64,000 nt of DNA from Photorhabdus laumondii subsp. laumondii (lineage in GTDB: Bacteria; Pseudomonadota; Gammaproteobacteria; Enterobacterales; Enterobacteriaceae): positions 3,224,001 through 3,288,000 of the forward strand of contig NZ_CP024901.1 of the NCBI RefSeq assembly GCF_003343245.1. The letters are read 5' to 3'. The stretch's first letter is position 1. The number at the start of each line of letters is the position of its first letter. Shown piece after piece: positions 9,870 to 60,323 of the stretch. The notes under the pieces are model-generated. The model was not told the origin of the DNA. It worked only from the letters and a program-made list of their open reading frames with translations, and did not search any database. The translations under genes were made by a program, and so were the position numbers.

Positions 9870-9995
9870 ATACCCGTTATCTTTCAAGTTGCTTCTTTGT
9901 TGGCTGCACTCGCTCACCCCGGTCACATAGTTTGCTATGCTCCCGGGGATTCACTCCCTTGCCGCCGCGATCCATCTTGAAATCTATAGGGTATA
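9870..9995. repeat. ERIC element 1 (tandem, left copy)
   Basis: This is an ERIC-type palindromic repeat of about 125 bp. Its ends are TATACCC and GGGTATA; the core carries the ERIC-PCR-like GGTCACATAG...CTCCCGGGGATTC. It lies just upstream of yeaL and abuts a second copy head to tail. The two copies share a TA at the junction (GGGTATATACCC, 9989-10000). Confidence 0.9.
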
Positions 9996-10119
9996 TACCC
10001 GTTATCCTTCAAGTTGCTTCTTTGTTGGCTGCACGCGCTCACCCAGGTCACATCGTTATCGATGCTCCCAGGGATTCGCTCCCTTGCCGCCGCGATCCAT
10101 CTTGAAATCCATAGGGTAT
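9995..10119. repeat. ERIC element 2 (tandem, right copy)
   Basis: Second of two head-to-tail ERIC copies in the same orientation as element 1. It separates the backbone gene yeaL from the 3' end of the entA-like gene at the left border of accessory block 1. Confidence 0.9.
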
Positions 10120-10192
10120 TAATCCTATTAGGCTAGGGCAATTTTTCCTTACGTTACAGAAATGACAGGTATTTTCGTATTAATTCAAACAA

Positions 10193-10963
10193 TTAACAAG
10201 CTAACGTCGCACCACCATCAACCACAATATCTTGTAGCGTTATATGGCTTGCCAAATCAGAAGACAAGAACAGTACGGTATGTGAAATTTCATTAACACT
10301 TGCAATTTTACCGAGGGGAATACCTAATTTATATCGCTCAGGATACCCGTTAATCGTATTTTTTTCATCATCATCGGTTTTCCACATAGAACGCTGCATA
10401 AATGTATCCGTCGAACCCGGCGATACAACATTACAACGTACACCAAACGGCGCAAGTTCTAACCCAACACAATGCGTTAAACTTGTCAGTGCTGATTTTG
10501 ATGCACAATAAGCCGCCATTTGCATACGTGGAACACGTGCCGCATTAGAGCTGACGCTGATAATAGTGCCACCACGCTGACGTTTAAAATGGGGAATCAC
10601 GCTACGAAATAGATAAAAAGCCCCAGAAGCATTCACATTAATACAACGATGCCAGTCACTAATATTTAGCTCATCAATATTTCCCAATTGTAATATACCG
10701 GCAGCATTAACCAGAATATCTAACTCGGCTGAGACAGACAGTTGTTGGGAACAGATCATTTCGACCTTTTCTGGATCACTGATATCGAGTTGTATACATT
10801 TATAAGGCAAATTATCTTGCTCAAATACGCGATCGAAACCTATTACGTTAGCGCCCAGCGCGGTAAAATCACGGGCAATTTGTTCACCAATACCACGTGC
10901 CGCCCCAGTTACCCAGACGGTTTTATGGCTAAAATCCATTTGTAAATTTTGTTTATTTTTCAT
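10193..10963 (-). CDS. entA: 2,3-dihydro-2,3-dihydroxybenzoate dehydrogenase (EntA-like)
   Basis: This short-chain dehydrogenase oxidises 2,3-dihydro-2,3-dihydroxybenzoate to 2,3-dihydroxybenzoate (DHB) with NAD. The product is 256 residues. The Rossmann motif TGAARGIG lies at about 19-26, NAAG near 87, and the catalytic Tyr/Lys pair is in AAYCASK. RCNVVSPGSTDTFMQR and SDLASHITLQDIVVDGG closely match E. coli EntA. It is last in a three-gene minus-strand unit (entE-, entB-, entA-like). The start at 10963 is preceded by AAGAAG; an internal MDFSHK start is less likely. The assignment rests on similarity and operon context. Confidence 0.9.
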   Translation of the reverse strand: MKNKQNLQMDFSHKTVWVTGAARGIGEQIARDFTALGANVIGFDRVFEQDNLPYKCIQLDISDPEKVEMICSQQLSVSAELDILVNAAGILQLGNIDELNISDWHRCINVNASGAFYLFRSVIPHFKRQRGGTIISVSSNAARVPRMQMAAYCASKSALTSLTHCVGLELAPFGVRCNVVSPGSTDTFMQRSMWKTDDDEKNTINGYPERYKLGIPLGKIASVNEISHTVLFLSSDLASHITLQDIVVDGGATLAC

Positions 10964-11006
10964 CTTATTTCTTCTTTAATTTTAATAGCGATTTATTATG
11001 CATTTT

Positions 11007-11660
11007 TTATAAATTCAGTTTATCGAAATTTACCGATGAAATTATTTCTTTAGTACTCATGACCATTCCTGATTTTTCAGCAACATATTTTAAAGCCATG
11101 AGGTGATCTTCCAGCGTAAAATCCGCTATCGCATCACCCACTAAAAAAGGCTTTATATCTCTCATGAATGCGTCAACCGCAGTAATCATACAACCAATAT
11201 GTCCATACACCCCGCAAATAATTAATTGATCCCGGCCTAAGTCTTTTATATTTTTTTCTAACGAAGAGCGTTGAAATGCACTATAACGCCACTTAACTAT
11301 CACAATATCATCGTTATTAGGGGCCAAAGCAGGGTTAATATTTTGTAAATGGGGTGATCTATTCAAGCCGGCCCCCCATATATCATTAAGTAATGCGCGT
11401 TCTTCATCACTTTGCATTTTAGGTTGTGCTGTATATATAATGGGGATCTCTTTTTCTTTACAAAAGACTCTCAACAAATGGATATTTTCAATTAATTTAT
11501 TGATTAGAGGGCTATTATCACCGAAAAACTGTAAGAAATAGTCCTGCATATCATGAATAAGTAAAATTGCCCTATGGGGTTCGAATAACCAAGATGCTTT
11601 ATTGCCTGGAAAATCTTTTGGCTGAGGTAGCATATAATTTTTCAATGATGGAATGGTCAT
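11007..11660 (-). CDS. entB: Isochorismatase (EntB N-terminal domain only)
   Basis: This enzyme hydrolyses isochorismate to 2,3-dihydro-2,3-dihydroxybenzoate. The 217 residues cover only the isochorismatase domain of Ent[39 protein letters not shown] and [10 protein letters not shown] are present. E. coli EntB is about 285 residues and ends in an aryl carrier domain, which is absent here. The missing domain is encoded separately at 24490-24720. PhzD is also a lone-domain isochorismatase, but the sequence reads much closer to EntB ([13 protein letters not shown]). It lies 22 nt downstream of the entE-like gene. Confidence 0.9.
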
Positions 11661-11682
11661 TTTAATACCTTCATGTCATTAA

Positions 11683-13302
11683 TTAATTTTCTAATTTGTC
11701 TCGAATGAGTTTTCTTAATAATAATTTATCAATCTTTCCGACGGGTGTAACCGGCATAACATCAATAATCTCGAAACGATCAGGCAATTTATATTCAGCA
11801 ATCCCCATTCCCCTTAAATATTTCCGCAGTTGCAACGTGTTTATATTCGGATCAGCCACCACAATAAAAGCACAGCTTTTTTCTCCCATCAAAGGATCAG
11901 GCATCGAAACCAAAGCGCTATGGATAACATCTTCATGTTTGAGTAGCAAAGATTCAATTTCTTCCGAAGCAATTTTTTCACCACCGCGATTAATTTGATC
12001 TTTCTCACGCCCGACAATACATATATAACCCTCTTTCGTCATATAGGCTAAATCACCGGTATAATAAAAACCTTCTTTGTCGAATACCTTCGCATTGTGC
12101 GCTGGGCTTTTATAATATCCCCGGAATGTATATGGCCCACGAATGATTAACATCCCCGCTGAACCTGGCGCTTGTATATTGCCGTTATCATCAACGATAC
12201 GTACCTCATCATCTCCACTCATTGGGCATCCCTGAGTGGTAAATATACGCTCATCATCGTCATTAAGCCGGGTATAACATACCAACCCTTCGGCCATACC
12301 AAAAACCTGTTGCAACTTACATGAAAAAAGTTTCGGTATCACTCGCGCCACACTTTCACTTAACTTTGCTCCACCGACTTGTAATAGCCGAAGACTTTCT
12401 AGTGAATATTGGTATTTCCTCATCGTCTGAATCCATAACGCAACAGCCGATGGCACCAATGAGGTCATTGTTACTTTATGTTCACGTATAAGTGGAAAGC
12501 AGGTCGTAGGCCCAGGATCTGTTGCTAATATAAGACAACCACCAGCATAAAATACGCCAAGCGCCCCCGGAGAACTCAAAGGATAATTATGTTGCGCCGG
12601 CAAAGCACAAAGATAACGGGTCTGTTGTGTCAACTCACAAATTTCGACACTGCGCCTCACACTATAATAGTAATCGTCATGCGTCCTTGGAATTAATTTA
12701 GGTGTCCCTGTACTCCCGCCTGAAAGTTGAAAAAAAGCGACTTCATCTGAACGTGTCGCCTCAAAATTCAAAGGTAAATTTGTTGACTCTAACCACGATT
12801 TTAATTCATTGGTATATTGTATTTTTCGACCATCAACGACGATATTCCTTAACCGTGGGCAATGTATTTTTAATTGCTCCAGGAAATCATTATTCTGTAA
12901 AAGTGAATGCTCTGACGAAAGTACAATCAGACTTGGATCAATTTGTTGTGCATAAGCAAGTAACTCTAATTTATTATGGCTAAACAATGCATTAATAGGT
13001 ACTACCCCCATTTTCAGTAGCGCAAAAAATGTAATATAAAATTCAGCTATATTTGGCAATTGTACGATAGCAGTATCACCTCTCTTTATTCCCGCTAAAG
13101 TTAAATTTGAGGCTAATGCAGATGATTGTTGATCAAGTTGATGATAACTAAATTTACGGTTACCACAGATAATAGCTATTGCTTCAGGTTGTCGCTGACA
13201 TTGTTTATAAAGTATGTCAGTTAAGGGTTTACCCAGCCAATAACCCTTTTCACGATAACGCTCTGCTAACTCAACCGGCCAGGGTGTAAATTCAATAGAC
13301 AT
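11683..13302 (-). CDS. entE: 2,3-dihydroxybenzoate-AMP ligase (EntE-like)
   Basis: This enzyme activates DHB as the adenylate and loads it on an aryl carrier protein. The 539 residues form an ANL-superfamily ligase with core motifs LSGGSTGTPKLIPR, QVFGMAEGL, YYTGDL, GREKDQINRGGEKI and a C-terminal GKIDK lysine. AQHNYPLSSPG carries Asn where amino-acid-activating A domains have Asp235, as in aryl-acid enzymes. The frame is open 13 codons upstream; I choose ATG 13302 (MSIEFTPWP), which matches EntE and has AAGGA 8 nt upstream. It is first in the unit with the entB- and entA-like genes. No isochorismate synthase gene is in the window, and I see no Fur box upstream. Confidence 0.92.
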   Translation of the reverse strand: MSIEFTPWPVELAERYREKGYWLGKPLTDILYKQCQRQPEAIAIICGNRKFSYHQLDQQSSALASNLTLAGIKRGDTAIVQLPNIAEFYITFFALLKMGVVPINALFSHNKLELLAYAQQIDPSLIVLSSEHSLLQNNDFLEQLKIHCPRLRNIVVDGRKIQYTNELKSWLESTNLPLNFEATRSDEVAFFQLSGGSTGTPKLIPRTHDDYYYSVRRSVEICELTQQTRYLCALPAQHNYPLSSPGALGVFYAGGCLILATDPGPTTCFPLIREHKVTMTSLVPSAVALWIQTMRKYQYSLESLRLLQVGGAKLSESVARVIPKLFSCKLQQVFGMAEGLVCYTRLNDDDERIFTTQGCPMSGDDEVRIVDDNGNIQAPGSAGMLIIRGPYTFRGYYKSPAHNAKVFDKEGFYYTGDLAYMTKEGYICIVGREKDQINRGGEKIASEEIESLLLKHEDVIHSALVSMPDPLMGEKSCAFIVVADPNINTLQLRKYLRGMGIAEYKLPDRFEIIDVMPVTPVGKIDKLLLRKLIRDKLEN

Positions 13303-13395
13303 GATTTTATTCCTTACAATAATATTCAATACCTTGAACAATCGTCGATTACTGTTTATACATATTTACTTTATCTCCCATCAGAAATATTTCGA

Positions 13396-13528
13396 CTCTT
13401 ATTTTGTGAGCTGCTTCTAAATAAATTCATTTCGTAACAAATCATACTTCGAGCAAACGCTCAAAATACAAATTTAATTACCTAATACATTGCAAAATAA
13501 AATCATATTGCTAATAGTTAGTAACGTA
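13396..13528. repeat. Upstream segment duplicated before the radical SAM gene (copy 1)
   Basis: This stretch and 14893-15055 are diverged copies of each other. Both contain TTATTTTGTGA, TCTAAATAA, AAACGCTCAAAATA, AAATTTAAT and GCTAATAGTTAGTA in the same order and spacing. The homology continues past ERIC element 3 as ACCTTTAATC...GGGTAAATTAT just before the radical SAM start. It lies between the divergent entE-like and radical SAM genes, so it probably contains their promoters. Confidence 0.8.
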
Positions 13529-13654
13529 TATGCCCTATGGATTTCAAGATGCATCGCGACGGCAAGGGAGCGAATCCCCGGGAGCATAGAAAACTATGTG
13601 ACCGGGGTGAGTGAGTGCAGCCAACAAAGAGGCAACTTGAAAGATGACGGGTAT
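13529..13654. repeat. ERIC element 3
   Basis: ERIC-type repeat starting TATGCCCTATGG (one substitution in the terminal TATACCC) and ending GACGGGTA. It is inserted in the duplicated upstream segment 26 bp before the radical SAM start codon. The paralogous segment near 15016-15028 lacks it and shows the presumed empty site. Confidence 0.9.
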
Positions 13655-13680
13655 CACCTTTAATCCAACAGGGGTAAATT

Positions 13681-14745
13681 ATGCCATGCTTCCCTCCTGG
13701 ATATTGGGAACAATATCCAAACACCGCCACCGTGATCACAACCTATACTTGCAATGCTGCTTGCAAAGAATGTTGTTTTGAATGTAACCCCTCGGTAAAA
13801 GCGCGTTTAAGCCTGGATGAAATTAAACAATTTATTGCACACTCAAAAGCTAATTTTCCAGGGCTAAAGTTAGTTGTTTTCAGTGGTGGGGAGTGTTTCC
13901 TGCTAGGTAAAGATCTGATTGAAGCCATTCGCTTTGCCTCAGATCACGGCTTATTAACTCGTTGCGTGACTAACGGTTATTGGGGGAAAAATAGAGAAAA
14001 GGCGCAAAAAATCGCTCAAGATTTAATAAATGCGGGCATCACAGAGATGAATATCAGTACAGGGAAAGATCACAGTGAATGGATTCCCCTTGATAGCGTA
14101 GTGACAGCGGCAGAAGCATTGGCCGAACAAAATATTACAACACTGATTACAGTAGAACAGGATACCTTTGATTCCGCCATTGCAACGCAAATCACCCAGA
14201 ATCCCGTTATTAAGCGACTGAAAGAGCAAAACAAGATTAATTTACAGCGAAATACCTGGATGCCGTTTTATGACACCAGCGAAGAACGAAAAGATATTCC
14301 AAACCGGGATCAGCAACTGGCAAAAGGGTGCGATCAGGTCTTTGAAAATATTGTACTGACACCACACGGTGAAATTTCCGCTTGCTGTGGGCTGACATTA
14401 GAACATATCCCCGAAATGAAACTTGGCCGTTTACAAGGAGGCGATGTATCTCAGCTTTTTAAAGGTCAGGAAGAAGACTTTATGAAAGTCTGGTTAAGAA
14501 CTGAGGGACCATACAACATCCTAAAAAAATATCGCCCGCAGGATAGCAATATTAATCTGGAAAAAATCGTTCATCCCTGCCAAGCCTGTGCTCATTTGCA
14601 TAAAGACGAGAGGACACGCCGGAATCTGTTAGATAATTATCACAAAGAAATTATTCCGGTAATAAAGAAATTTAACGCTAAAGAACGGCTGGATCTCATC
14701 TACTACTCAGCAGAAAAAAATGCCGTTAACTTAATTGAAGAATGA
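13681..14745 (+). CDS. Radical SAM protein with C-terminal Cys-rich (SPASM-like) region
   Basis: The protein has 354 residues. The radical SAM [4Fe-4S] motif CX3CX2C is at Cys24, Cys28 and Cys31 (TCNAACKECCFEC), followed by a VVFSGGE motif near 60. The C-terminal part adds CDQVF, GEISACCG and HPCQACAHL, giving cysteines for an auxiliary cluster as in SPASM-type peptide-modifying enzymes. The substrate is unknown. A plausible one is the neighbouring 15485-16498 protein or the NRPS product. A decayed paralogue lies directly downstream (15181-15484). The ATG at 13681 follows GGGGTAAATT. The gene runs divergently from the DHB genes. I do not recognise a named family. Confidence 0.8.
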   Translation: MPCFPPGYWEQYPNTATVITTYTCNAACKECCFECNPSVKARLSLDEIKQFIAHSKANFPGLKLVVFSGGECFLLGKDLIEAIRFASDHGLLTRCVTNGYWGKNREKAQKIAQDLINAGITEMNISTGKDHSEWIPLDSVVTAAEALAEQNITTLITVEQDTFDSAIATQITQNPVIKRLKEQNKINLQRNTWMPFYDTSEERKDIPNRDQQLAKGCDQVFENIVLTPHGEISACCGLTLEHIPEMKLGRLQGGDVSQLFKGQEEDFMKVWLRTEGPYNILKKYRPQDSNINLEKIVHPCQACAHLHKDERTRRNLLDNYHKEIIPVIKKFNAKERLDLIYYSAEKNAVNLIEE

Positions 14746-14892
14746 AAATATAACAGAATCGAATCCATATTTTAACGTTATTACTAACAAATATCGCCAA
14801 AATAACTCTTTTTCGGTTAACAAATTTTTATTAAATGGGGAGGTAATCAAGGAAAAGAAATATTTTATTCTTCTTTATGAATATTTTTACTT

Positions 14893-15055
14893 GTTATTTT
14901 GTGATCGGACTCTAAATAAGGATATTTTGTCGAAAAATATATTTAGTCTAAACGCTCAAAATATAAATTTAATCAACTAACCTATTGCAAAATGTCACCA
15001 TCCAGCTAATAGTTAGTACCATCTAACCTTTAATCGAACGGAGGGTAAATTATTC
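14893..15055. repeat. Upstream segment duplicated before the radical SAM relic (copy 2)
   Basis: Diverged copy of 13396-13528 that also retains the stretch from AGTTAGTACC to GGAGGGTAAATTAT without an interrupting ERIC. It leads into the radical SAM relic. An 81-codon TTG-initiated frame at 14735-14980 runs across it, and I reject that frame as coding because it coincides with duplicated promoter DNA. Confidence 0.75.
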
Positions 15056-15183
15056 TATACCCAATGGATTTCAAGATGCATCGCGGCGGCAAGAGAGCGA
15101 ATCCCCGGGAGCATAGATAACTATGTGACCGGGGTGAGTGAGTGCAGCCAACAAAGAAGCAACTTGAAAGATGACGGGTATAT
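15056..15183. repeat. ERIC element 4
   Basis: ERIC-type repeat starting TATACCCAATGG and ending GACGGGTATA. It interrupts the start of the radical SAM relic: upstream-region homology ends at its left side and coding homology resumes at its right side. Confidence 0.9.
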
Positions 15184-15484
15184 ACCCAAATACTGTTATG
15201 GTCATCACAATATACACTTACAATTAATATAGCAGGTAAGAAATATCAGTTAGATAATTATTTCATGAAATTATCTCAGTAATGAAGAAGCTTAATAAGG
15301 AAAGGTTACATATTATCTTATATATACCCTATGGATGCATCGCGACGGCAAGGGAACGAATCCCCGGGAGCATAGATAACGATGTGACCGGGGTGAGTGA
15401 GAGCAGCCAACAAAGAAGCAACTTGAAAGATGACGGGTATAAAGCTCAATAAAAAAAGAATTCCGTTAACTTATAAAGGAACGA
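15181..15484 (+). pseudogene. Decayed second copy of the radical SAM gene
   Basis: 15185-15225 aligns with codons around 12-25 of the intact radical SAM gene (13714-13755): the deduced PNTVMVITIYTYN compares with PNTATVITTYTCN, and the first cluster cysteine is changed to Tyr. From about 15249 to 15320 the DNA aligns with the gene's 3' end (TTAGATAATTAT, GAAATTAT, GTAAT, AAGAA). After ERIC element 5 it resumes with CCGTTAACTTA, matching the last codons. About 850 bp of the middle is missing and two ERICs interrupt it, so it cannot be functional. It shows that two radical SAM genes once preceded the 15485 gene. Confidence 0.8.
15323..15441. repeat. ERIC element 5 (short variant)
   Basis: ERIC-type repeat lacking about 8 bp near its left end: TATACCCTATGG runs straight into ATGCATCGCG where other copies have TTTCAAGATGC. 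It sits inside the 3' end of the radical SAM relic, 44 bp before the 15485 gene. Confidence 0.9.
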
Positions 15485-16498
15485 ATGATGAAAAGACGTA
15501 CATTTATTGGCGTGGCTGCCGGTGCAGCTATTGGCAGTGTCATACCCACCGTCAATGCTAGCACTGATAGCAACCGCCTGTTTGGCGTGCCACGTTCATT
15601 ACTCTCTCCGGGAGAGGTTGAAGAAAATAAGCTAAGGTTGTCAATGTCAAACGCCAAACTCCCGGTTGAAGTTTGGGAAGAGATCATCACCTATAACCGA
15701 TTCTGGGAAACCCTACAACAACAGCCCAATTTAGCATTAGAATACCGGGAGTCACCGGAAAAAGTGTTAGCTGAATTTGGCATAGACAAAGATATCGTTA
15801 GCCCCGGTTCCGCAGAGGAATTACTGTTATTCATCACTTATGATAAAGACTTAATGAATGCGGTAAAAATCAACGACTATGAAGCGCTCTTTTCCCGCCT
15901 AAAAACCTATGGTTTAAACGAAAGGGGCTCAAGTCTGAGAAGCCGAATCAATCACCATCTCAATCAAGATGCCAGCCTGTTCGCACATTTTAAAGAAAAC
16001 ATCGAATCCTATCAGCTCCAAGATACAAACAGTCCTCCTCTTCTCCGGCTGAAAGAAATTCTGGAACCCTTAAACAGTGAAGATGATACCAGTATTGAAA
16101 TTGCTCGCCTTGCCGTAGGGGCCAATGTCGTTGCTGCGGTCAACGTGGCTGTCGGCACCCGAGTTGTCGCAGCAGTGAATGCGGCGGCGGCAGTTAACGT
16201 AGTAGCCTACTTAAGCCTCGCGGTACAAACAGCGGTGACTGTATGTATGGCAAATTATTTACCCAAACTTGATCATAGCGACCTTTCAGCCGGCACGGCT
16301 TCTCTTCATCTTGCCAGACTCTATAACAACCAAGAAATGGTCGATACACTGGTTAAAGAAGCTGTCAGAAGGGAAATCACCGCTTGCCTGTTTGCGGCGC
16401 AAAAGTGTGGTTATATCAATCTGCCCGCAACACGTGAAGAACGTAAAGAAGTGATTCATCTCTTTACCGAATTATCTTTAGGAATGGCAGCAGCATGA
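15485..16498 (+). CDS. Unrecognised protein with twin-arginine-like signal and Val/Ala/Asn repeat; candidate radical SAM substrate
   Basis: The protein has 337 residues. The N-terminus MMKRRTFIGVAAGAAIG, ending near VNAS (22-25), looks like a Tat or Sec signal peptide with an RR pair. Residues 72-108 (RFWETLQQQP, then ALEYRESPEKVLAEFGID) resemble the leader motif of nitrile-hydratase-like RiPP precursors. Residues 210-257 are a low-complexity stretch with VVAAVN twice plus AAVNVVA, reminiscent of proteusin cores. Three cysteines follow (254, 301, 308). The gene directly follows the radical SAM gene and its relic and overlaps the next gene by 4 nt. A precursor, a carrier or an exported accessory protein are all possible; the function is unknown. 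AAAGGA precedes the ATG. Confidence 0.7.
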   Translation: MMKRRTFIGVAAGAAIGSVIPTVNASTDSNRLFGVPRSLLSPGEVEENKLRLSMSNAKLPVEVWEEIITYNRFWETLQQQPNLALEYRESPEKVLAEFGIDKDIVSPGSAEELLLFITYDKDLMNAVKINDYEALFSRLKTYGLNERGSSLRSRINHHLNQDASLFAHFKENIESYQLQDTNSPPLLRLKEILEPLNSEDDTSIEIARLAVGANVVAAVNVAVGTRVVAAVNAAAAVNVVAYLSLAVQTAVTVCMANYLPKLDHSDLSAGTASLHLARLYNNQEMVDTLVKEAVRREITACLFAAQKCGYINLPATREERKEVIHLFTELSLGMAAA

Positions 16499-16989
16499 AT
16501 AATATCGTGGGATTAAATCCAGACTTCAAAGTCATATTAATGAATGTCGCTATGCTCGTCCTGATCGCTTTAGTTTTTCTGCCTGTGCCATACTGGCTCA
16601 GTAACAGCAATCCCAACAAGCTGGCGGCAAGTATTGCGACGACTCTCTTTATCATCATTGCCTTATTTGTAGGCTATCAACTGTTATCAAATAAAGCCGT
16701 GGCCAAGGAAGGAAAATTATTGATGAAGTCCGGGGTATATTCACACGAATGGGTTATTTCCTCATTACGCCGGGAAGCAGGCGTTTCCTTGGAAGATTTT
16801 AGCCGAAGCAATGGTATACATATTATCCATTATTCGTCTGGATACTATCACAAGGGAAAAAATAAATATTTCATTCTGCGTGTAAGCAAACGCCCTCTGA
16901 TCTGCTTTAATTCAGAAGGTAATATTGGATTATGCATAGATGAATCTATTTTTGAAAAAATAAAGGGCGAGTTGCAAGATAAAATATAG
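16495..16989 (+). CDS. Unrecognised small membrane protein
   Basis: The protein has 164 residues. Two hydrophobic helices lie near 14-34 and 43-63, followed by a soluble domain of about 100 residues (SHEWVISSLRREAGVSLEDF, IIHYSSGYYHKGKNKYFILRV). The start ATG overlaps the previous stop (ATGA), and the NRPS gene begins 17 nt downstream, so it belongs to the same transcription unit. No family was recognised. Confidence 0.75.
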   Translation: MNNIVGLNPDFKVILMNVAMLVLIALVFLPVPYWLSNSNPNKLAASIATTLFIIIALFVGYQLLSNKAVAKEGKLLMKSGVYSHEWVISSLRREAGVSLEDFSRSNGIHIIHYSSGYYHKGKNKYFILRVSKRPLICFNSEGNIGLCIDESIFEKIKGELQDKI

Positions 16990-17006
16990 CGTGGAGCCGC
17001 ACAATA

Positions 17007-20000
17007 ATGGAATATAATAACAACTATTGGCCGTTGAATTATACACAGCTCCGCTTAGCTATTGCTAATACTGTTGCTGACGATAAGTCTGTCTTCAATG
17101 TCGGTGAATTCATCAGCTTCAGTGATAATATTAGTCTGGCAAGATTGAAGCAGGCCATTATTACCATTCATCAATTCAATGATGGTTTTTCCTTACGTTA
17201 CCGTATTGCCGAACACAATATTTTTCAGGAAAAGAGCTCTACGCCGGTCGACGTTATACCAATAAAACTGTCAGATCCAGCAGTAGAACCAGCGGCAAAA
17301 GCGGATTTTGCAAAGAGAACAACTCAACCGCTAGCGCCTGAAAAGGGTGTGACGATAAGGCATTATCTTTACTTTAATGATGTTGGGTGCTGTTTCTGGG
17401 GAATCATCGCTCACCATATTGCCACAGATTATTGGGGCATAGGTCAGTTGATTCATGATGTTTTGTCTTGCTATGAACAACAAACATTCCACCCAACATC
17501 AGCACCGATCTTTACCTATCAGGCTTATCTTGACGAGGTTAAATATAAAGCAAACGTGCATTATGCTAACAACAAAGAGTATTGGAATAATTACCTCAAC
17601 CAACTGCCCAAATTAGAGGATTATACCCGTAAACGTCTATTTCCCTCAAAAGCAATTAAAGTAAGCCGGCCGCTCACCGCAAACAACCATAGTTTTACTT
17701 TCAATGATAAATTAATGATGATGTTGGCTTTATGTCTGCAAATGAGCAAACGAGGCCGCGTATCAACAAATATCATCAATTTACCTTTCTCTAACCGACG
17801 TGATAAAGGAGAATACCGCTATTATCGTCCGGCAATGAACACGTTACCTCTGATGGTTTCTTTGGCCCCACAGGCAACCATAAAACAGATCCTCGTAGCA
17901 ATGCAGTCGCAAATTAGTCTGCATAGCAAGCATAGCCGTATTGATATAAATGATTTGAATGATGAAGCAATCAATCGGGCAGATCAATTCATTGCCGCCC
18001 CCTATGTTAATTTGCTGCATGAGCTTGAACATGATCTTATGAAAGATAATCGCGCTATACGCGGTTGTATGACTTCTGGCGCGGTCAATAATTATGGTAT
18101 TAACATCCGGTTTTCTCCTGATGGGATATCAGCATTAGTCGAATTGGATGTGGGGAGCCGCCTGTATAGTCATTTTGCCGCCCATACTCTGATCGACGAT
18201 TATTTACATATTTATAGTACGATTGCAGAAAATATTAATGAAACCGTTGAGGCATATTGGGTGAAATATAAAGAAATTGAACCAACGGATAATATTATAT
18301 CTAGCCTGGATAACCCCAAAAATATTGTTATTAATCATCCTATCAAAGAGAATATTATTGCCCGAATAGCACAAATCGTTGCAGTATCGCCGGATAAAAA
18401 ATCAGTCATTCATGGAGATCAAACAGAAATAAACACCGTGCATCGCCTTAATTACGGTGAACTTTACCACAAATTATTCACTTTCAGTCAATTGCTATTA
18501 TCCTGCCCACTACAAAATCGAAGGGTAGCCGTATTATTACCCAGAGGGATGGATTCCTTATTATCTATATTATCTATCCATACTGCGGGATTATGTTTTG
18601 TCCCAATCAATATGACATTTGGTCAAGAAGAGATAAATAACATATTAAATAGTCTGAATATTTCTTTATTAATCACTGCTCGTCATTACCATGAAAAAAT
18701 AAACGGTGTTAATAATACGCATATTCTCTTTATTGAAGATATAGAAACTCGCCCTTCCGAGATATTTCTGGGGCATGATATAAAACGTCCGGCGACTCAA
18801 GAAGACGAAGCCTATATCTTTTTCACATCAGGCACCACAGGTGTACCGAAAGCAGTACCAATAACGTTTAAGGGGCTTTATGCCTATTTGGCTGCAATGA
18901 CAGAGCAGTATGATATTAAACAAGATGACGTTATTCTCAATTTCAGCACACCCGTTTTCGATGCTTATATTGAAGAAGTGTTCGGATGTTTTTATCAAGG
19001 TGCCACATTAGCCATTGCCAACGATAATATGATCGTTGAACTTGAGACACTGTTTTCATTTTGCCATGCACAATCGGTCACTATAGTTAATTTTCCTACC
19101 AATTATTGGCATCAAATTGTCTTTTTCCTACATGCAGCCATTAAAGAACTCGCACCTTCGATTAGAATGACAATTATCGGTGGCGATCTGGCAATGGATA
19201 AAGCCATTCATCATTGGTTGGAAAAAGTCGGATGTGGTATTTCTCTGATTAACTCTTATGGCCCAACAGAATGTTGCGTTGTGGCTAGCAGTCACAAAAT
19301 AGCTGATAAATTTCAACCCGGTAATATCATTGGTAAAGCGCTAGCCAATACCAATATCGTTATTCGGGAATATGGAACTAATAAGATCATTAATGGCAGT
19401 AATGGAGAAATATGCATCCGTGGCGATTCTATCTGTAGCGGATATATTAACGATAATCAGTCAACTTCACGTAGGTTCTTACAGTTGAACGATGGAGAAA
19501 TCTATTATTTAACCGGAGACCGTGGATTTTATGATGCCCAAGGGAATTTAAATTTCATTGGCCGTCTGGATAAAGAACATAAAATTGACGGGAAACGTGT
19601 CGATCTGGATGAAATGCAAAAATTACTTACGGCGGCGATTAATATTGATGACATTCATTTAGCGATAAAAGAAAATGAAACTGGCTACCAATATATTAAT
19701 ATATTTATACCTGATAGATCATGCTCAATTACACGTCACGAAATCGTCTCATTCTTGCGTGGATGTTATCCAAAATTGCAGGTACCTTTTATTGTCGAAT
19801 TATCATCATCCAACAATTCTGCTCCAATATCAGAATTGAATAAAGAAGATAATATTTCGCAGATTAAAGGAGAAAAACGAGAAATATTTTTTACTTTATG
19901 GCGGGAAGTTTTTGGCGATAGCGACGGCATTGTTGATGAAGAGACTAATTTCTTTGATGCCGGCGGTACTTCGCTTAAGGCATTATTATTAATAAACAAG

Positions 20001-21398
20001 ATCCAGCAACGTTTTAATTGTTCTATTCACCTGGAAGATTTCTATCACACCCCTAGATTAGGTTATCTATTACAATCTGTCATTCAACAAGGGCAAATAC
20101 CGGTTTTAATCGATAAAAATAGTTCTTGCCTGACAGAACAACACGACCAATATTATTGGATTATCGATACTATCTCTAATCGTTCCGGCGCTCATAATAT
20201 CCCGCTATATTATCATCTGATCGGCGAGATTGATTTAAAGAAATTACGTTACGCTTTGCTGTATATCATGCAATATTTCCCTGCTCTCTGCCAAAGAGTC
20301 ACCATAATAGATGGGCAGCTCTCTTTAACCTTCTCGCCTGCTATTGAAGAGAACCTGCCTTTCGAATATATTGATTTAACTCATGCTACCGGCATTAATA
20401 TTGAAATTTCATTCCGCAAAATCTTAAATGATATGGCATTTAAGCCGATGGCGTTACAGGATAATCCACCGGTATATTTTAAGTTATTAAAAATAGCAGA
20501 ACATGAGCACTACCTTTTATTAAATTTCCATCATGCGTTTTGTGACGGGATGTCGATTGCTCATGTGTTGCAAAAATTATCTTCCGCTTACGCAGATAAT
20601 GTACCGAAGATTGAAGCTGCGACGGAAACAGGCATTAATGTCATTAATCAGCGCATGTCAGACGAAACATTAAATTTTTGGACAGAAAAATTATTCAACG
20701 TCCTTTCGGTTGTCGGACAGAATAATGAGTCATCGGAAACTCATCTTAGGGCCCGAGGCCGACGTTATTCAATGCCGTTGTCTCCACAATTAATGGCCGA
20801 ACTATCCAGCACGCAGAAAAAATATGCGGTGACTCTGGAACATATTATGATTGGCGCATTTCTGATGACCATTAATTCATTACTCAATAAAGATGAGATT
20901 ATCGTCGGTATTCCTTGTGCCAACCGAGCTCCTCCCATATCGTTTGACAGTGTTGGTAGCTTCGCAACCACACTACTGCTGCCCTACGTTACTGCGGAAA
21001 CTTCGCTGATTAACCTATCCATATATGTCCGCGAATTTCTGGCCGACGCGAATACTCATTCCAATATCTCACTGGCCTATTTAAAACAACATCTTCATCA
21101 CCATCACGGTATGCAATTGCCAGAAGTCACTTATTATTTTTCTTCTCAAATAGGGTTTGAAACCGGTTTATATCTTGGTGAAACCCGTTGCACCAAAGAA
21201 AAAATCAAGGGGCTTAAGCCTAAAGGAGATATTGCGCTCGAACTGATCAATTTGCCAACTGGAATAGGTCTGGAATGGCTCTACGATGATGATATTTTCT
21301 CTGAAGATATCATCAGCGACATGGGGCTGTTTTTGATTGATTTATTGGATTGCATAGGCACTCAGCATAACTTGATGCCTGGTGATACGGAACGATAA
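17007..21398 (+). CDS. Nonribosomal peptide synthetase, C-A-PCP-C
   Basis: The protein has 1463 residues. Domain 1 is a condensation domain (about 1-430) with His136-His137-I-A-T-Asp141-Tyr, a HHxxxDG motif whose Gly is Tyr. The adenylation domain (about 460-940) has FFTSGTTGVPKA, FDAYIEEVF and NSYGPTE; the eight readable specificity positions are D-A-E-N-I-G-S-V-V plus the core Lys, close to codes I remember for lysine. The carrier domain has the phosphopantetheine Ser989 in AGGTSLK. A second C domain (about 1060-1463) has a canonical HHAFCDG (His1175-Asp1180-Gly1181). There is no thioesterase or reductase. With EntE and the aryl carrier, it may join DHB to a basic amino acid and pass it to an amine acceptor. 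Confidence 0.9.
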   Translation: MEYNNNYWPLNYTQLRLAIANTVADDKSVFNVGEFISFSDNISLARLKQAIITIHQFNDGFSLRYRIAEHNIFQEKSSTPVDVIPIKLSDPAVEPAAKADFAKRTTQPLAPEKGVTIRHYLYFNDVGCCFWGIIAHHIATDYWGIGQLIHDVLSCYEQQTFHPTSAPIFTYQAYLDEVKYKANVHYANNKEYWNNYLNQLPKLEDYTRKRLFPSKAIKVSRPLTANNHSFTFNDKLMMMLALCLQMSKRGRVSTNIINLPFSNRRDKGEYRYYRPAMNTLPLMVSLAPQATIKQILVAMQSQISLHSKHSRIDINDLNDEAINRADQFIAAPYVNLLHELEHDLMKDNRAIRGCMTSGAVNNYGINIRFSPDGISALVELDVGSRLYSHFAAHTLIDDYLHIYSTIAENINETVEAYWVKYKEIEPTDNIISSLDNPKNIVINHPIKENIIARIAQIVAVSPDKKSVIHGDQTEINTVHRLNYGELYHKLFTFSQLLLSCPLQNRRVAVLLPRGMDSLLSILSIHTAGLCFVPINMTFGQEEINNILNSLNISLLITARHYHEKINGVNNTHILFIEDIETRPSEIFLGHDIKRPATQEDEAYIFFTSGTTGVPKAVPITFKGLYAYLAAMTEQYDIKQDDVILNFSTPVFDAYIEEVFGCFYQGATLAIANDNMIVELETLFSFCHAQSVTIVNFPTNYWHQIVFFLHAAIKELAPSIRMTIIGGDLAMDKAIHHWLEKVGCGISLINSYGPTECCVVASSHKIADKFQPGNIIGKALANTNIVIREYGTNKIINGSNGEICIRGDSICSGYINDNQSTSRRFLQLNDGEIYYLTGDRGFYDAQGNLNFIGRLDKEHKIDGKRVDLDEMQKLLTAAINIDDIHLAIKENETGYQYINIFIPDRSCSITRHEIVSFLRGCYPKLQVPFIVELSSSNNSAPISELNKEDNISQIKGEKREIFFTLWREVFGDSDGIVDEETNFFDAGGTSLKALLLINKIQQRFNCSIHLEDFYHTPRLGYLLQSVIQQGQIPVLIDKNSSCLTEQHDQYYWIIDTISNRSGAHNIPLYYHLIGEIDLKKLRYALLYIMQYFPALCQRVTIIDGQLSLTFSPAIEENLPFEYIDLTHATGINIEISFRKILNDMAFKPMALQDNPPVYFKLLKIAEHEHYLLLNFHHAFCDGMSIAHVLQKLSSAYADNVPKIEAATETGINVINQRMSDETLNFWTEKLFNVLSVVGQNNESSETHLRARGRRYSMPLSPQLMAELSSTQKKYAVTLEHIMIGAFLMTINSLLNKDEIIVGIPCANRAPPISFDSVGSFATTLLLPYVTAETSLINLSIYVREFLADANTHSNISLAYLKQHLHHHHGMQLPEVTYYFSSQIGFETGLYLGETRCTKEKIKGLKPKGDIALELINLPTGIGLEWLYDDDIFSEDIISDMGLFLIDLLDCIGTQHNLMPGDTER

Positions 21399-21413
21399 CA
21401 AATCGTAAAATGG

Positions 21414-22580
21414 ATGCTGATTGTGCTGGTCAAAAAAAAGAAATGGGTTGTTATCACCATCATCATGATCGCTTTTCTTGCCGTGGCTTATAACCACTTT
21501 AGCCAAAAAGAGACATCTACGGTGATGACAGAACAAATCGTCACCGGAACGTTAGGTGATGTTATTACTACGGTCAATGCTGCCGGTATTGTACAACCAA
21601 CCAGTCAAGTCAATGTTGGTAGCCAAATTTCAGGCCAGTTAACCAAGTTATATGTTGAAGTCGGGGATATTGTTGAAACAGGTAAGCTGGTCGCTAGCAT
21701 TGATGATACTTTTTATCGTACTAAAGTTGAGGCAAGCCGAGCGCGACTAGAAAAATTGCGAGCCATGTTGCAAGAAGAACAATACGCTTATCAACTTCTG
21801 GTCATCACGGAAAAACGCCAAAGAGAGCTTAACCTGCGTTCCGCAACCAGCCAGCAACTGCTGGATGAGGCTGCTTTTGGCGTCAAAAAAAGTCAGGCAA
21901 GAATTGAAAGTCTCAAAGCAGACATCAGGCAAAATGAACATATTTTGCACAGTGAAGAAGTCAGCCTCAGTTATAGCCAAATCTATTCGCCTATTGCTGG
22001 CGTCGTGACCGCAATTCATGTTGACCCCGGGCAAACACTAAATGTCAATCAACAGACACCGGTTCTCATGCAAATTGCCGACCTCAAAAATATGACGGTT
22101 TATGCAAAGGTTTCCGAAGCAGATATTAACCAAATCGTGACGGGGCAAAAAGCTTCCTTCAAGATCTATAGTACAAATCAGCATATATGGCACGGTAATG
22201 TTAAGAAGATTATGTATAAACCCGATCTCATTAATAATGCTGTTTATTATACTGTGCTATTTGATGTCCCTAATGATAATTTCCTGCTTAAACCCAGTAT
22301 GAGTGCGGATGTCACTATTGTGACCCACGAAAGCACCGGAGTAGTGACTATACCCAGTGATATACTGAATAATAAACGGCATCAACCTTTGAACGATGAT
22401 CTAACTACCTATTTTTTACGTGAGATGAAAGATGGAAACATCGTAGTAAGACAATTATTGATCGGTCATAACAATGGAAGGCGTTCAGTCGTTGTCAGCG
22501 GATTGCAGAGTAACGAGCAGATCGTTGTACTTTCCAAACAAGATAATCTTGGGAAGATCCAAAATGATAACGCTAAATAA
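21414..22580 (+). CDS. MacA-like periplasmic adaptor of an ABC exporter
   Basis: The protein has 388 residues. One N-terminal membrane anchor (about 10-28) is followed by a lipoyl/biotinyl half-motif (GQLTKLYVEVGDIVETGKLVASID), a coiled-coil hairpin (about 100-190), the second lipoyl half (IYSPIAGVVTAIHVDPGQTL) and a beta-barrel. This is the membrane-fusion protein of a MacAB-type tripartite exporter linking the inner-membrane pump to an outer-membrane channel, probably TolC. It starts 15 nt after the NRPS stop. Its 3' end overlaps the ATPase gene by 17 nt. Export of the island's product is the obvious inference. Confidence 0.9.
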   Translation: MLIVLVKKKKWVVITIIMIAFLAVAYNHFSQKETSTVMTEQIVTGTLGDVITTVNAAGIVQPTSQVNVGSQISGQLTKLYVEVGDIVETGKLVASIDDTFYRTKVEASRARLEKLRAMLQEEQYAYQLLVITEKRQRELNLRSATSQQLLDEAAFGVKKSQARIESLKADIRQNEHILHSEEVSLSYSQIYSPIAGVVTAIHVDPGQTLNVNQQTPVLMQIADLKNMTVYAKVSEADINQIVTGQKASFKIYSTNQHIWHGNVKKIMYKPDLINNAVYYTVLFDVPNDNFLLKPSMSADVTIVTHESTGVVTIPSDILNNKRHQPLNDDLTTYFLREMKDGNIVVRQLLIGHNNGRRSVVVSGLQSNEQIVVLSKQDNLGKIQNDNAK

Positions 22581-23229
22581 TATCTGCAAAACCTATGGTA
22601 ATGAGGGTAAACAACATCTTGTCCTGAAAGATATTTGCTTAACCATAGACCAAAATGATTATGTTGCTATTCTTGGTCGCTCCGGTTCAGGGAAAAGTAC
22701 CTTATTGAATATAATAGGACTTTTGGATATCGCCAGTGCGGGAGAATATCTTATTAATGATCTCACGGTAACTCAGCAAAAGATTCACTCATTGGCGCTT
22801 TTACGGCGAAAATATTTTGGCTTTGTCTTTCAAAATTATAACCTGCTGGAAAACTACCGCATTGATGAAAATATCTTGATGCCCATGTACTACTTAAAAA
22901 GAAACTTCGATTATGACAGAGAACATTTCCGTTACTTAATCGATCGTCTCCAACTTGACAATTTATTAGATAAATACCCGCGCCATCTATCAGGAGGAGA
23001 ACAGCAGCGCGTTGCTGTCGCTCGCGCTTTGATCAACAATCCAAAGTTTATTATTGCCGATGAACCTACCGGCGCATTAGATACCACTAATGCGACCAAC
23101 CTCATGCAACTTTTTACTGAGTTACATCATAATGGATGCGGCATCATTCTAGTAACACATGACCAAGTTGTTGCCGAATATGCCAAACGCCGACTATATC
23201 TGGACAGTGGTTCTTTGGTGGCTCAATGA
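22564..23229 (+). CDS. MacB-type ABC transporter ATPase subunit
   Basis: The protein has 221 residues. Walker A is GRSGSGKST, the signature [15 protein letters not shown], Walker [13 protein letters not shown], and the H-loop VTHD. It belongs to the MacB/LolD branch of ABC ATPases. In E. coli MacB the ATPase and permease are fused; here they are separate genes. I choose ATG 22564 ([12 protein letters not shown]), which has GGAAG upstream and the family N-terminus; the open frame extends 30 codons further inside the adaptor gene. The stop overlaps the permease ATG (ATGA). Confidence 0.9.
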
Positions 23230-24455
23230 GCATGAGTAAAATAACTTTAAAATTTAATATTTATTCAACCGTCATCCTATTTAATCTCAAGATGACGGTA
23301 CGCTCTCTTGCCGCCCATAAAACACGAGTCTTCCTGACGCTATTATGCATTGCCATCGGCGTAGCTTCGATTGTGATCATGCAAGCAATCGGCGAAGAAA
23401 CCAAGCATCATATTGTTAAGATGGTCTCCTCAATGGGAAGTAATATCATTTCAGTAAAATATAAGGGACAAGAAAACGGCGCTTTCGATTCCCATCATGA
23501 TTATCTGACACAAGAGGATATAACGTCACTTTCAGGTAATCCCCATATTAGCCACAGCACTCTATTTTATACTGCGCCAGGAACAATCGTTTCTCCACAA
23601 GGCTCTGCTGATGTTCAATTAATTGGTGCCAATGCAGATATCGCGATTATCCGTAATCTGGTGATTGATCGTGGACGTTTTTACACACCACAAGACAATA
23701 CTGCCCTAGCAAATGTCGTTGTCTTGGGAGCATCTCTGGCCGAGAGACTTTTTCCGCAAAAAGAAACCGCATTTGGGCAGAGCATCAAGATTAACGACAT
23801 CTCGATGCAAGTTATCGGTATCCTGACACAGAAAGGCGAAGGTATGGACGCAGGGGTAGATGATGCCGCATTTTTGCCAAGCAACAGCTATCTGGTACGG
23901 CTGTTCGGTCATACGCCGCCTAGTGGCATGGTGTTGAAAGCCAAAGATGCCTCTCATATTGAACCGGTTAAATACGCTATTGAACAACGGTTGTCACGGT
24001 TTAAACATCAACAAAGTTACGAGATACGTAATACCACCGAATTGTTGAAAACCTTGCATGAAACCCAATCAAAAATTAACCTTTTCCTCTTATCAATATC
24101 ATCAGTGACTCTCTTTGTTGCGGGTGTCAGTGTCATGAATACCATTCTCATTAGTGTTAGAGAACGTAGAAGAGAGATTGGTATACGGCTTGCCGTAGGA
24201 GCCAGTTATTCCGACATTTTTTACCAGTTTCTTACCGAAGCATTTTTGATTTCATTATTGGGAACATTATTAGGATTGTTATTTTCATTTATCGGTTTCA
24301 GAATTTTATTACTATTTGATATTACGGTTGGCTTCTCTTTCTATTCCTTTTTACTCGCTTCCCTTGCAGCCTGCTTTATTACCGTCGTGTTTGGTGTATA
24401 TCCATCACATCGTGCAGCTGCATCAGCGCCAATCGAAGGTATCAGAGAATTGTAG
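23226..24455 (+). CDS. MacB/FtsX-type ABC transporter permease
   Basis: The protein has 409 residues. A first membrane helix at about 33-53 precedes a large periplasmic MacB core domain (about 55-270), and three helices follow near 283-305, 330-355 and 370-395. VMNTILISVRERRREIGIRLAVGA is the conserved cytoplasmic coupling segment of this family. It couples ATP hydrolysis in the cytoplasm to transfer of periplasmic substrate into the adaptor-TolC channel. It is the last of the adaptor-ATPase-permease trio, followed after 34 nt by the aryl carrier gene. Confidence 0.9.
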   Translation: MSMSKITLKFNIYSTVILFNLKMTVRSLAAHKTRVFLTLLCIAIGVASIVIMQAIGEETKHHIVKMVSSMGSNIISVKYKGQENGAFDSHHDYLTQEDITSLSGNPHISHSTLFYTAPGTIVSPQGSADVQLIGANADIAIIRNLVIDRGRFYTPQDNTALANVVVLGASLAERLFPQKETAFGQSIKINDISMQVIGILTQKGEGMDAGVDDAAFLPSNSYLVRLFGHTPPSGMVLKAKDASHIEPVKYAIEQRLSRFKHQQSYEIRNTTELLKTLHETQSKINLFLLSISSVTLFVAGVSVMNTILISVRERRREIGIRLAVGASYSDIFYQFLTEAFLISLLGTLLGLLFSFIGFRILLLFDITVGFSFYSFLLASLAACFITVVFGVYPSHRAAASAPIEGIREL

Positions 24456-24489
24456 TTTGTTTTGTTTCATAAAACTTTTTGGAGGCACA

Positions 24490-24720
24490 ATGAAAAATCA
24501 GCTTATCTATGAAATTTTACATCGAGAAATCAAAGCGCTTCATCCAGAAGCAGAGACAATACCGGAGGATGAAAACCTTTTTGATATCGGTTTCGATTCG
24601 GTAAAAATGCTGATGCTGGTTGATCGGCTAAATGATGTGGGGTATCCAATTAACTTTGCAGATTTAGCCCGCTGGCCGACAATCAATGATTGGGTCAAGC
24701 TGCTCGCAAAAAATGAATAG
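24490..24720 (+). CDS. Stand-alone aryl carrier protein (EntB C-terminal domain homologue)
   Basis: The protein has 76 residues and forms one carrier-protein domain. The phosphopantetheine site is Ser37 in DIGFDSVKM. NLFDIGFDSVKMLML and the C-terminal ARWPTINDWVKLL match the aryl carrier domain of EntB (DYGLDSVRMM, KNPTIDAWWKLL). It should accept DHB from the EntE-like enzyme and present it to the first C domain of the NRPS. GGAGGCACA before ATG 24490 is a strong RBS. It closes the plus-strand gene set; the isochorismatase half of EntB is about 13 kb away on the other strand. Confidence 0.88.
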   Translation: MKNQLIYEILHREIKALHPEAETIPEDENLFDIGFDSVKMLMLVDRLNDVGYPINFADLARWPTINDWVKLLAKNE

Positions 24721-24731
24721 CGCTGCCTATT

Positions 24732-25907
24732 TCATGACGAATGGTGGATGATCCATGCAGTCAAATCTGCAATTACCTGCGCCGGGATCTGACCTGGGTG
24801 CAGATAATCCTCTCCACCATCGCACCCCATTGTGGGCAATAAAATATGATTCAATCCAGTGTAGAGTTTGAACTCTGCCTGCCTATTATTTTGCAGTGCA
24901 GTTTTCCACATCGTGAAATCAACATTATGCAAAATCTGGCAATCCTGATCTCCCTGAGCAAAAAATAACGGCATGGCAGGCAAGCTGTTTAAGCAGTCAA
25001 ATGCATGATAATTCTCAATCTGTTTGAGATAACTATCCGGCACTGATAAAAAGCTCGCAAGAGATATCGTATCTTGCTCTTTCCCACTGGGTAATTGGGA
25101 TAAAATCACCCGGAGTAAATTACGGAAAGGCGCCGCCAACATCGCAATACCCGTAACATTTAAACCCGATTTTTGCTGTAAGTTCTCTGCAATTAATGGG
25201 CTGACATATCCGCCGAAACTGTGCCCAACCAGAAATACTGGCACATCGTGAAATTCAATATGTCCCATTAAACCGGTCAGTATATTACAAGCATCGTCAA
25301 CAATTTCCGTATTGAGATCGACAACCTCAGGGTCCATATTTCTCTGCCGGATACGGTAATAGCGTTTGTCAAAACGTACACTCGCAATTCCATATTGACT
25401 TAATTCATGTGCCAGCATACGAAACAGTGAATTAGGCCCAACATCATAATCCATCGAATGAGGACCAGAACCTGCAAGCAATAGTACAAGTGCTTTGGCA
25501 TCATTATGTGGTGATGGCAAACAGACCAAACCATCCGGGACATCTCTAAGACCAAACGTCTTTAACGTTTTTTCGATAAAAATACCCTGTTTTGCATACG
25601 CATCAGGTATTGGGCATCGAGATAACGAGAGAGAATTAATTTGCCGATCTTTAATCCCAATATAAAGATTGAACTTTCCATTGAGAGTATTTAGCCGCAG
25701 ATGACAAGCACCTTGCTGCTGATAAATAATATCGATATCTGAGTTACACAAACTGTCTGCCAATACAGTTAAAGCTAAATCATCAGCCGCCATACGCAAT
25801 GATTCATTCATTAATTCCCTAGCGGCTTCCCATTGCTCATTAAGCAATGTGGTTATTAATATCTGTATTTCACCTTCCAATGTGGCAATTAATTTCTTAA
25901 TAAGCAT
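24732..25907 (-). CDS. Alpha/beta hydrolase
   Basis: The protein has about 391 residues. The N-terminal 110 residues are helical and resemble the DUF3887-type domain found in some serine hydrolases. The hydrolase core has LLAGSGPHS (oxyanion region), nucleophile elbow GHSFGG, an acidic residue in QGDQD and a C-terminal histidine in GLNHILLP. No signal peptide is evident. It might release or cleave the NRPS product, since that enzyme has no thioesterase, but this is only contextual. The frame can begin at TTG 25919; ATG 25907 is preferred. It converges on the aryl carrier gene with an 11-bp gap. Confidence 0.8.
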   Translation of the reverse strand: MLIKKLIATLEGEIQILITTLLNEQWEAARELMNESLRMAADDLALTVLADSLCNSDIDIIYQQQGACHLRLNTLNGKFNLYIGIKDRQINSLSLSRCPIPDAYAKQGIFIEKTLKTFGLRDVPDGLVCLPSPHNDAKALVLLLAGSGPHSMDYDVGPNSLFRMLAHELSQYGIASVRFDKRYYRIRQRNMDPEVVDLNTEIVDDACNILTGLMGHIEFHDVPVFLVGHSFGGYVSPLIAENLQQKSGLNVTGIAMLAAPFRNLLRVILSQLPSGKEQDTISLASFLSVPDSYLKQIENYHAFDCLNSLPAMPLFFAQGDQDCQILHNVDFTMWKTALQNNRQAEFKLYTGLNHILLPTMGCDGGEDYLHPGQIPAQVIADLTAWIIHHSS

Positions 25908-25923
25908 GTAATTACTCAACTTC

Positions 25924-60314: not shown

Positions 60315-60323
60315 TTTAACCAT

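Follow-up and report, generated by a model that had tools for sequence, protein, structure and literature searches.

A 64,000-nucleotide stretch of the Photorhabdus laumondii subsp. laumondii genome (NZ_CP024901.1, positions 3,224,001 to 3,288,000; hereafter the window, from whose first letter all coordinates are counted) carries an island combining genes for 2,3-dihydroxybenzoate (DHB) activation, a radical S-adenosylmethionine (SAM) enzyme, a putative precursor protein, a small membrane protein, a non-ribosomal peptide synthetase (NRPS), a MacAB-like exporter and an aryl carrier protein. This hybrid locus is genuine and is conserved within Photorhabdus; it is a composite of a predicted peptide-epimerisation module able to stand alone and a catechol NRPS unit, probably under common control. 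Most likely it represents one regulon with two products, and on balance we lean towards both of these, an epimerised peptide and a catechol amide, being secreted. All genes listed for the island were confirmed at their coordinates by the open reading frame (ORF) list and profile scans; to an initial annotation of the same DNA, which had proposed a single hybrid cluster, the present analysis adds the identity of the predicted epimerase, the spacing of asparagines in the precursor, a second precursor copy and an exchange of DHB genes among relatives.

Operon, shared DNA element and catechol genes in Photorhabdus

The precursor gene (15485..16498, plus strand) opens a run of plus-strand genes for the small membrane protein (16495..16989), an NRPS of condensation–adenylation–peptidyl carrier–condensation (C-A-PCP-C) architecture (17007..21398), a MacA-like periplasmic adaptor (21414..22580), the ATPase part (22564..23229; the open frame begins at 22474, the gene probably at 22564) and permease part (23226..24455) of a MacB-like transporter, and a stand-alone aryl carrier protein (24490..24720; PF00550, 38.8 bits), whose most probable start, at 24490, makes it 76 aa long. 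With the likely starts used, each gene from precursor to carrier either shares 4 to 17 bases with the next or stands 15 to 34 bases away from it. The NRPS was assigned by domain profiles. The pump proteins match MacA and MacB below curated cut-offs (PRK11578, 231 bits against 342 for the adaptor, which exceeds the TIGR01730 cut-off; PRK10535, 193 bits over the C-terminal part of the permease); because the ATPase part is nearest to a putative bacteriocin-export family (TIGR03608, 205 bits, cut-off 255), the pump might export the peptide instead of the catechol.

Conservation within the genus was assessed in 12 mutually related genomes, the window and 11 same-genus species. The NRPS gene stands next to the precursor gene in the window and in 10 of the relatives, 11 genomes in all; in the remaining one, G011, it has been lost, and the radical SAM gene and one precursor persist. 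One further genome, G010, has the NRPS with a reduced MacAB and no carrier matched in the 20 kb read, and in G002 a contig break separates the radical SAM gene from the precursor. A second precursor copy lies behind the radical SAM gene in G009, G007, G003 and G011 and is in pieces in G005. The association of NRPS and module is thus real, yet seen in one genus, as the DHB, NRPS, MacAB and carrier set occurs together with the module only in Photorhabdus.

A 44-base element with 38 fixed positions lies upstream of both the radical SAM gene (copy 1, 13455..13498, plus strand) and the precursor–NRPS operon (copy 2, 14950..14993, plus strand). These two copies are the only genome-wide matches at up to 3 mismatches (reversed control, 0), and copies with 0–10 mismatches stand at both places in 9 of the 11 relatives; G011 has the first copy only, and L025, which starts near the element's place, shows none. 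At up to 11 mismatches, the element is absent from L057, L060, L062 and L090. Because copy 1 sits between the divergent entE and radical SAM genes, it may serve either of them.

The DHB genes occupy the minus strand at one side of the island: entA, for 2,3-dihydro-2,3-DHB dehydrogenase (10193..10963; TIGR04316, 349 bits, cut-off 300), an entB-type isochorismatase gene devoid of a carrier domain (11007..11660; PF00857, 126 bits), and entE, for DHB-AMP ligase (11683..13341; TIGR02275, 968 bits, cut-off 724). EntB is thus split, its carrier function lying in the separate gene at the other side. Among the five chorismate-binding genes of the genome (PabB, TrpE, MenF and a salicylate synthase over cut-off, the fifth of fused PabAB type), MenF is the only isochorismate synthase and the likely source of isochorismate. 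For the NRPS, MxcG is the best family (339 bits against a cut-off of 2300), and our own reading of its adenylation code, in which the code positions and the likeness to lysine codes are assumed, is DAENIGSVVK. Much of the initial annotation is upheld by these data, including the C-A-PCP-C NRPS, split MacAB-type exporter and aryl carrier, the close spacing or overlap of plus-strand genes from 15485 on, the lysine-like adenylation code and, as detailed below, a radical SAM enzyme of peptide-modifying type. Its complete DHB-activation set bracketing the island is borne out as to EntA, split EntB, EntE and carrier; the cluster has no isochorismate synthase, and only the carrier lies on the far side.

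Local entA, entB and entE are present in seven genomes (the window, G001, G002, G004, G005, G007 and G009), in which no further DHB-type EntE was found at E 1e-100, apart from a fused salicylate type. In the other five Photorhabdus genomes the local genes are lost or in pieces, and all five have, elsewhere, an EntE of 56–58% identity encoded in an entCEBA cluster that also contains an NRPS gene. This complementary distribution suggests that DHB probably feeds the NRPS of the island; on the most parsimonious view, DHB is required wherever that NRPS survives. Two points count against this link: G011 keeps its entCEBA cluster in spite of having lost the NRPS, and the Fisher P of 0.0013 overstates the association, given the relatedness of the genomes and the G011 exception. 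By eye, several copies of a repeat of ~127 bases, which we take to be ERIC-like in name and length, flank the DHB genes and the precursor (window 13518-13680, 9937-10122 and 15050-15450) and are possible sites of entABE rearrangement or loss.

That this unit is a plain catechol siderophore locus, placed next to the peptide module by chance, is unlikely, although it is the best of the alternatives. EntA, EntE, isochorismatase, carrier and NRPS are all genuine, MenF could supply isochorismate, and some siderophores are exported by MacAB-type pumps; however, the cluster has no isochorismate synthase of its own, no TonB receptor was found among the window genes scanned (longest frame outside the scan, 510 aa), no Fur-like site rises over the background of the window (highest score within the cluster 14/19, against what we take to be the Fur consensus), and the DNA element is common to the upstream region of the radical SAM gene. 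The entCEBA cluster of G008, by contrast, includes an isochorismate synthase and a siderophore-receptor-like protein (214 bits, cut-off 223.5). From this make-up, and from passages of a report in which P. luminescens NC1 makes photobactin and TT01 is without phb genes (PMC2905363), we read the entCEBA cluster as the photobactin locus.

The radical SAM enzyme and its putative substrate

Family, fold and cysteine alignment together strongly suggest that the radical SAM gene (13681..14745, plus strand) encodes an EpeE/YydG-like peptide epimerase. YydG (TIGR04078) is the best NCBIfam family for this protein (92 bits) and also for four distant enzymes scanned (L066, L067, L068 and L097), the five scoring 79–100 bits against a cut-off of 300. 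In a PDB profile search EpeE was matched at E 1.4e-22, with no other structure at 1e-8. An AlphaFold model of the enzyme (pLDDT 92.1) retrieved EpeE chains as all nine top Foldseek matches (E about 1e-16, next 2e-8; TM 0.67–0.69 over the query length, identity 18–20%).

The CxxxCxxC motif, Cys217, Cys235, Cys236, Cys300 and Cys303 are unchanged in 36 of 36 aligned enzymes, that is, the window enzyme and 35 of the 120 relatives listed, and the conserved cysteines beyond the motif would fit a second cluster, as in the YydG family. Cys235 and Cys236 align in the PDB profile alignment with Cys222 and Cys223 of EpeE, numbered from the D210A chain, and the position of EpeE Asp210 pairs with a conserved Asn where the alignment is of low confidence. 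Passages of one paper propose Cys223 as the hydrogen donor of EpeE (PMC8326336), and those of a second review give Cys 233 (PMC5808125). A viperin assignment by PADLOC (40 bits) was discarded, as it looks like generic radical SAM similarity.

The 337-aa precursor looks like a substrate of such an enzyme, consisting of an N-terminal signal-like stretch with RR, an RLFGVP motif, a leader, a hydrophobic Val/Ala/Asn core and a conserved C-terminal part. Asparagines of the window core fall at 214, 220, 232 and 238, with a six-residue spacing. This pattern was assessed on cores chosen blind to Asn, as the 40 consecutive residues with the highest V and A content of each protein. The rule yielded 14 cores, of which 13 entered the pool, the precursors of L099 and L063 being left out as near copies of G637 and P0129 and the Thermus core being tabulated only. 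In the pool, 11 Asn pairs occur at lag 6 against 1.26 expected (0 of 20000 shuffles), six at lag 12 (P 0.0003; one from Lactococcus, which has no lag-6 pair) and four at lag 18 (P 0.005), with no excess at any other lag from 1 to 18. Lag-6 pairs are present in 6 of the 13 cores, and a subset of five, from five genera and picked post hoc among pair-bearing cores, holds 9 against 0.95 expected. Six-residue spacing is also given for Asn 16/22/28 of polytheonamide and the methylated Asn 25/31/37/43 of aeronamide in passages of PMC11285071.

The four Asn of the core are retained in all 10 orthologues printed, and the ratio of non-synonymous to synonymous substitution rates (dN/dS) of the precursor is 0.05–0.11 (6 comparisons), which together speak against a mere relic; the corresponding ratios are 0.04–0.15 for the enzyme (5), 0.09–0.23 for the membrane protein (6) and 0.14–0.15 for the NRPS (4). 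A P. asymbiotica record (P0002) has a core shorter by 18 residues, or three hexads, and 2 of the 4 core Asn left.

On the Thermus aquaticus plasmid pTA14 (L067 2599-4905), a gene for a hydrophobic-to-Asn-rich protein, a candidate precursor, precedes an EpeE-like radical SAM gene, behind which lies an SdpI-family gene. The enzyme has 34% identity to that of the window. The last part of the candidate precursor has alternating Asn, and a 48-residue stretch of it contains 16 Asn, with zero pairs at odd lags up to 11. L067, a relative by its enzyme, is perhaps the clearest candidate in which to test alternate epimerisation.

Several observations weigh against an exported, alternately epimerised and helical core. 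The enzyme scores far under the YydG equivalog cut-off, and EpeE itself performs two separate epimerisations rather than a series, according to passages of PMC8326336. Five of the 13 pooled cores are free of Asn and two more have Asn in no lag-6 pair; tests of single 48-residue windows were mixed (window 0.037, Exilibacterium 0.005, G637 0.09, P0003 0.011); and in such windows lag-6 pairs are missing from two further B copies of Photorhabdus, the B copies moreover differing from each other in length by numbers that are not multiples of six, which misfits the hexad idea. As the shuffle control preserves composition and not sequence history, the spacing could arise from 18-base duplications. Structure prediction of the precursor from nine sequences reached a pLDDT of 41.7, leaving the fold unpredicted, the twin arginine is absent from the L062, L097 and L098 precursors, and a fifth methylated Asn of aeronamide, Asn41, lies off the ladder in the passages cited (PMC11285071).

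The same data bear on the possibility, which we regard as improbable and somewhat weaker than a chance siderophore neighbour, that the enzyme performs other peptide chemistry, such as a Cα cross-link, and that the hexads form an all-L left-handed β-helix or similar structure. The NVVAAV repeat of the core fits what we take to be the hexapeptide pattern of such helices, a Cys lies near the end of several cores, and the YydG score lies under its cut-off; against this, the best match by both fold and sequence is a known epimerase whose hydrogen-donor Cys is kept, the ~5-6 hexads estimated for the window core are few for a stable domain, and the Thermus relative has Asn at every second residue.

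The three-gene module outside Photorhabdus

Radical SAM gene, precursor and membrane protein constitute a module able to stand alone. Scanning a collection of species genomes with a precursor profile gave 14 loci, 13 from Photorhabdus and one, L057, from an Exilibacterium metagenome assembly, in which genes for a radical SAM enzyme (51% identity), a precursor and a small membrane protein lie side by side; a widened search (at least 7994 candidates scored) added three proteins. Searching with the radical SAM protein (5680 candidates scored) gave 913 relatives at E 1e-10, 120 of which were listed. In 8 of 8 non-Photorhabdus loci with a radical SAM identity of at least 40% (L057, L060, L062, L063/L091, L065, L097, L098 and L099; L064 at 25% and L066–L069 at 31–35% fall outside this count), enzyme, precursor-like protein and small membrane protein form a single run, the last truncated by a contig end in one. 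The order is enzyme–precursor–membrane protein in five, precursor–enzyme–membrane protein in L062 and L099, and enzyme–membrane protein–precursor in L097. Precursors of the window type and from outside the genus are homologous over 307 columns (hhalign 99.5%, E 4.7e-23), with lengths of 317–388 aa in the window, P0002, P0008, L097, L098, L062 and L065.

The distribution of the module is rare and patchy. Sampling with a radical SAM profile found it in 2 of 369 genomes of the class and 2 of 394 of the order, and in 3 of 299 in the order of G221 (including the weak L064) and 4 of 295 in the family of G637, tallies that also count the own or centre genome. Searches of plasmids for the precursor at E 1e-3 and of phages for the radical SAM gene at E 1e-5 gave no match.

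By profile comparison, the window membrane protein is related to its counterparts in seven other loci (hhalign 94.1%, E 1.2e-7), although BLASTP did not match it to that of L057. Recognised as a membrane protein by eye, it reaches no Pfam cut-off by itself; PF10882 (bPH_5) exceeds the cut-off in the L060 and L097 proteins and falls under it in those of L057 and L065, the L099 protein has a sub-threshold bPH_4 match, and those of L062, L098 and the window have neither. It is most likely an immunity or processing partner.

In 13 non-Photorhabdus loci, tblastn of the window genes (E 1e-5; stretches of 3.5 to 21 kb, L062 starting 2.8 kb before the module and L091, a 3.5 kb contig, saying little) found no NRPS, EntB, EntE, MacAB or carrier. 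The matches obtained were a 28% match of a short-chain dehydrogenase/reductase to EntA in L097, hydrolases in L057 and L097, and, in L066 and L068, matches to the exporters neighbouring the island. As a gene association, the hybrid cluster is real in Photorhabdus, with its tight operon and shared element; as one pathway it is not supported, since in the 8 outside loci the module occurs apart from DHB and NRPS genes; the neighbourhood search proposed in the initial annotation thus finds the NRPS beside the precursor throughout most of one genus, and outside it comes near, L091 aside, to the separate occurrence named there as contrary evidence. A catechol-capped ribosomally synthesised and post-translationally modified peptide (RiPP), on whose amine the last C domain would place a DHB–amino acid unit made by the NRPS, has no direct support and is very improbable, for while the single operon with its upstream element would suit it, as would the fact that 11 of 12 Photorhabdus genomes retain NRPS and precursor side by side, the module does without NRPS and DHB genes in all 8 outside loci (one a very short contig), G011 retains the radical SAM gene and one precursor after NRPS loss, and the C domain and MacAB-like pump equally fit an ordinary small catechol amide.

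Around the island lie housekeeping genes, of malic enzyme, ArsC, peptidase M20 and TmcA-like types on one side and for SAICAR synthetase, NlpB/DapX and DHDPS on the other. An α/β hydrolase gene (24732..25919, minus strand) follows the carrier; it matches the hydrolases beside the module in L057 and L097 (BLASTP 1e-13 and 3e-11), and its membership is uncertain. An ORF at 14735-14980 was rejected as a gene because its match is split over two frames in several relatives. A pair of ABC exporter-type half transporters (26658-30058) adjoins the island and is kept in the NRPS-less G011. ChaN/Tiki-type haem-binding proteins are encoded at window 216-1106, ~12 kb from the module, and at L057 11498-12361, overlapping the module end. 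At 53799-55037 an ATP-grasp protein opens an AT-rich stretch (54000-64000) that may be a further region of specialised metabolism. L064 (1162-3964) is a different small RiPP-like cluster: it has a distant radical SAM gene and a 79-aa peptide, and inspection by eye shows another radical SAM gene, of B12 type, beside it (G960).

Proposed products and known systems

In the two-product scheme, the precursor would be made in the cytoplasm, where the EpeE-like enzyme, using 5'-deoxyadenosyl radicals and Cys236 as hydrogen donor, would convert L to D residues in the Val/Ala/Asn core. The signal peptide would direct its export, after which both flanks of the core would be cut away in the envelope; the core would then probably fold as a D,L β-helix with roughly six residues to the turn and a ladder of Asn, and act on membranes, perhaps as a pore, with the membrane protein most likely serving as immunity or processing partner. 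For the second product, EntA, EntB and EntE would make DHB and load it on the separate carrier, the NRPS would couple it to a lysine-like residue, its last C domain would release the unit onto an amine, and the MacAB-like pump would export this product or the first.

A more specific version is possible, though we hold it only tentatively: an EpeE-lineage enzyme may have independently evolved repeated alternating epimerisation, yielding a polytheonamide-like D,L β-helix channel out of a large exported precursor by means of a minimal three-gene module free of methyltransferases; in Photorhabdus a catechol NRPS would have been connected to this module, perhaps to give a product that bears a catechol or is linked to iron. 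If true, this would define a scattered family of exported epimerised peptides, would mean that two unrelated enzyme lineages make D,L-helical peptides, and would give Photorhabdus a conserved peptide locus; whether an EpeE-type enzyme can act repeatedly along a repeat becomes testable with two genes. In agreement with the initial annotation, no description of this module was found in the open literature at the level of titles, abstract starts and passages, a scope exclusive of preprints and subscription papers that leaves novelty unproven, and the locus does not appear in passages of a 2022 genus-wide survey (PMC9177418).

Among known systems, the photobactin and myxochelin pathways share EntA, EntB, EntE and an NRPS with the island, which differs in its terminal C domain, separate carrier and tie to a RiPP module and in having neither isochorismate synthase nor receptor of its own. 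Precursors of the SDP (SdpC) family are exported and hold a hydrophobic core that is flanked on both sides, a layout found again here; SDP is not known to be epimerised. Three of 14 precursors scanned (window, L062 and L098) match this family weakly over the core, at 19–22 bits against a cut-off of 99 (window, TIGR04032, 22.4 against 99.2), perhaps by composition only, and an SdpI-family gene lies beside the Thermus relative.

Proteusins such as polytheonamide and aeronamide have in common with the island precursor a Val/Ala/Asn core with six-residue Asn spacing; for the nitrile-hydratase-type leader the match is weak (TIGR04351, 20.1 bits, cut-off 65). No methyltransferase or dehydratase was recognised in the island, however, and its precursor has a conserved part after the core. 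Passages of PMC8326336 state that PoyD epimerises every second residue and that proteusin epimerases have no relation to EpeE; among solved structures, EpeE comes closest to the island enzyme. The epipeptide system of Bacillus subtilis (EpeX/YydF and EpeE/YydG) differs in its short precursor peptide, against 317–388 aa here, and in EpeP/EpeAB, no likeness of which was recognised in the cluster, where a MacAB-like pump is found instead. The island enzyme, although under the TIGR04078 cut-off, shares with EpeE the fold, the cysteine sets and the position of the Cys223 hydrogen donor.

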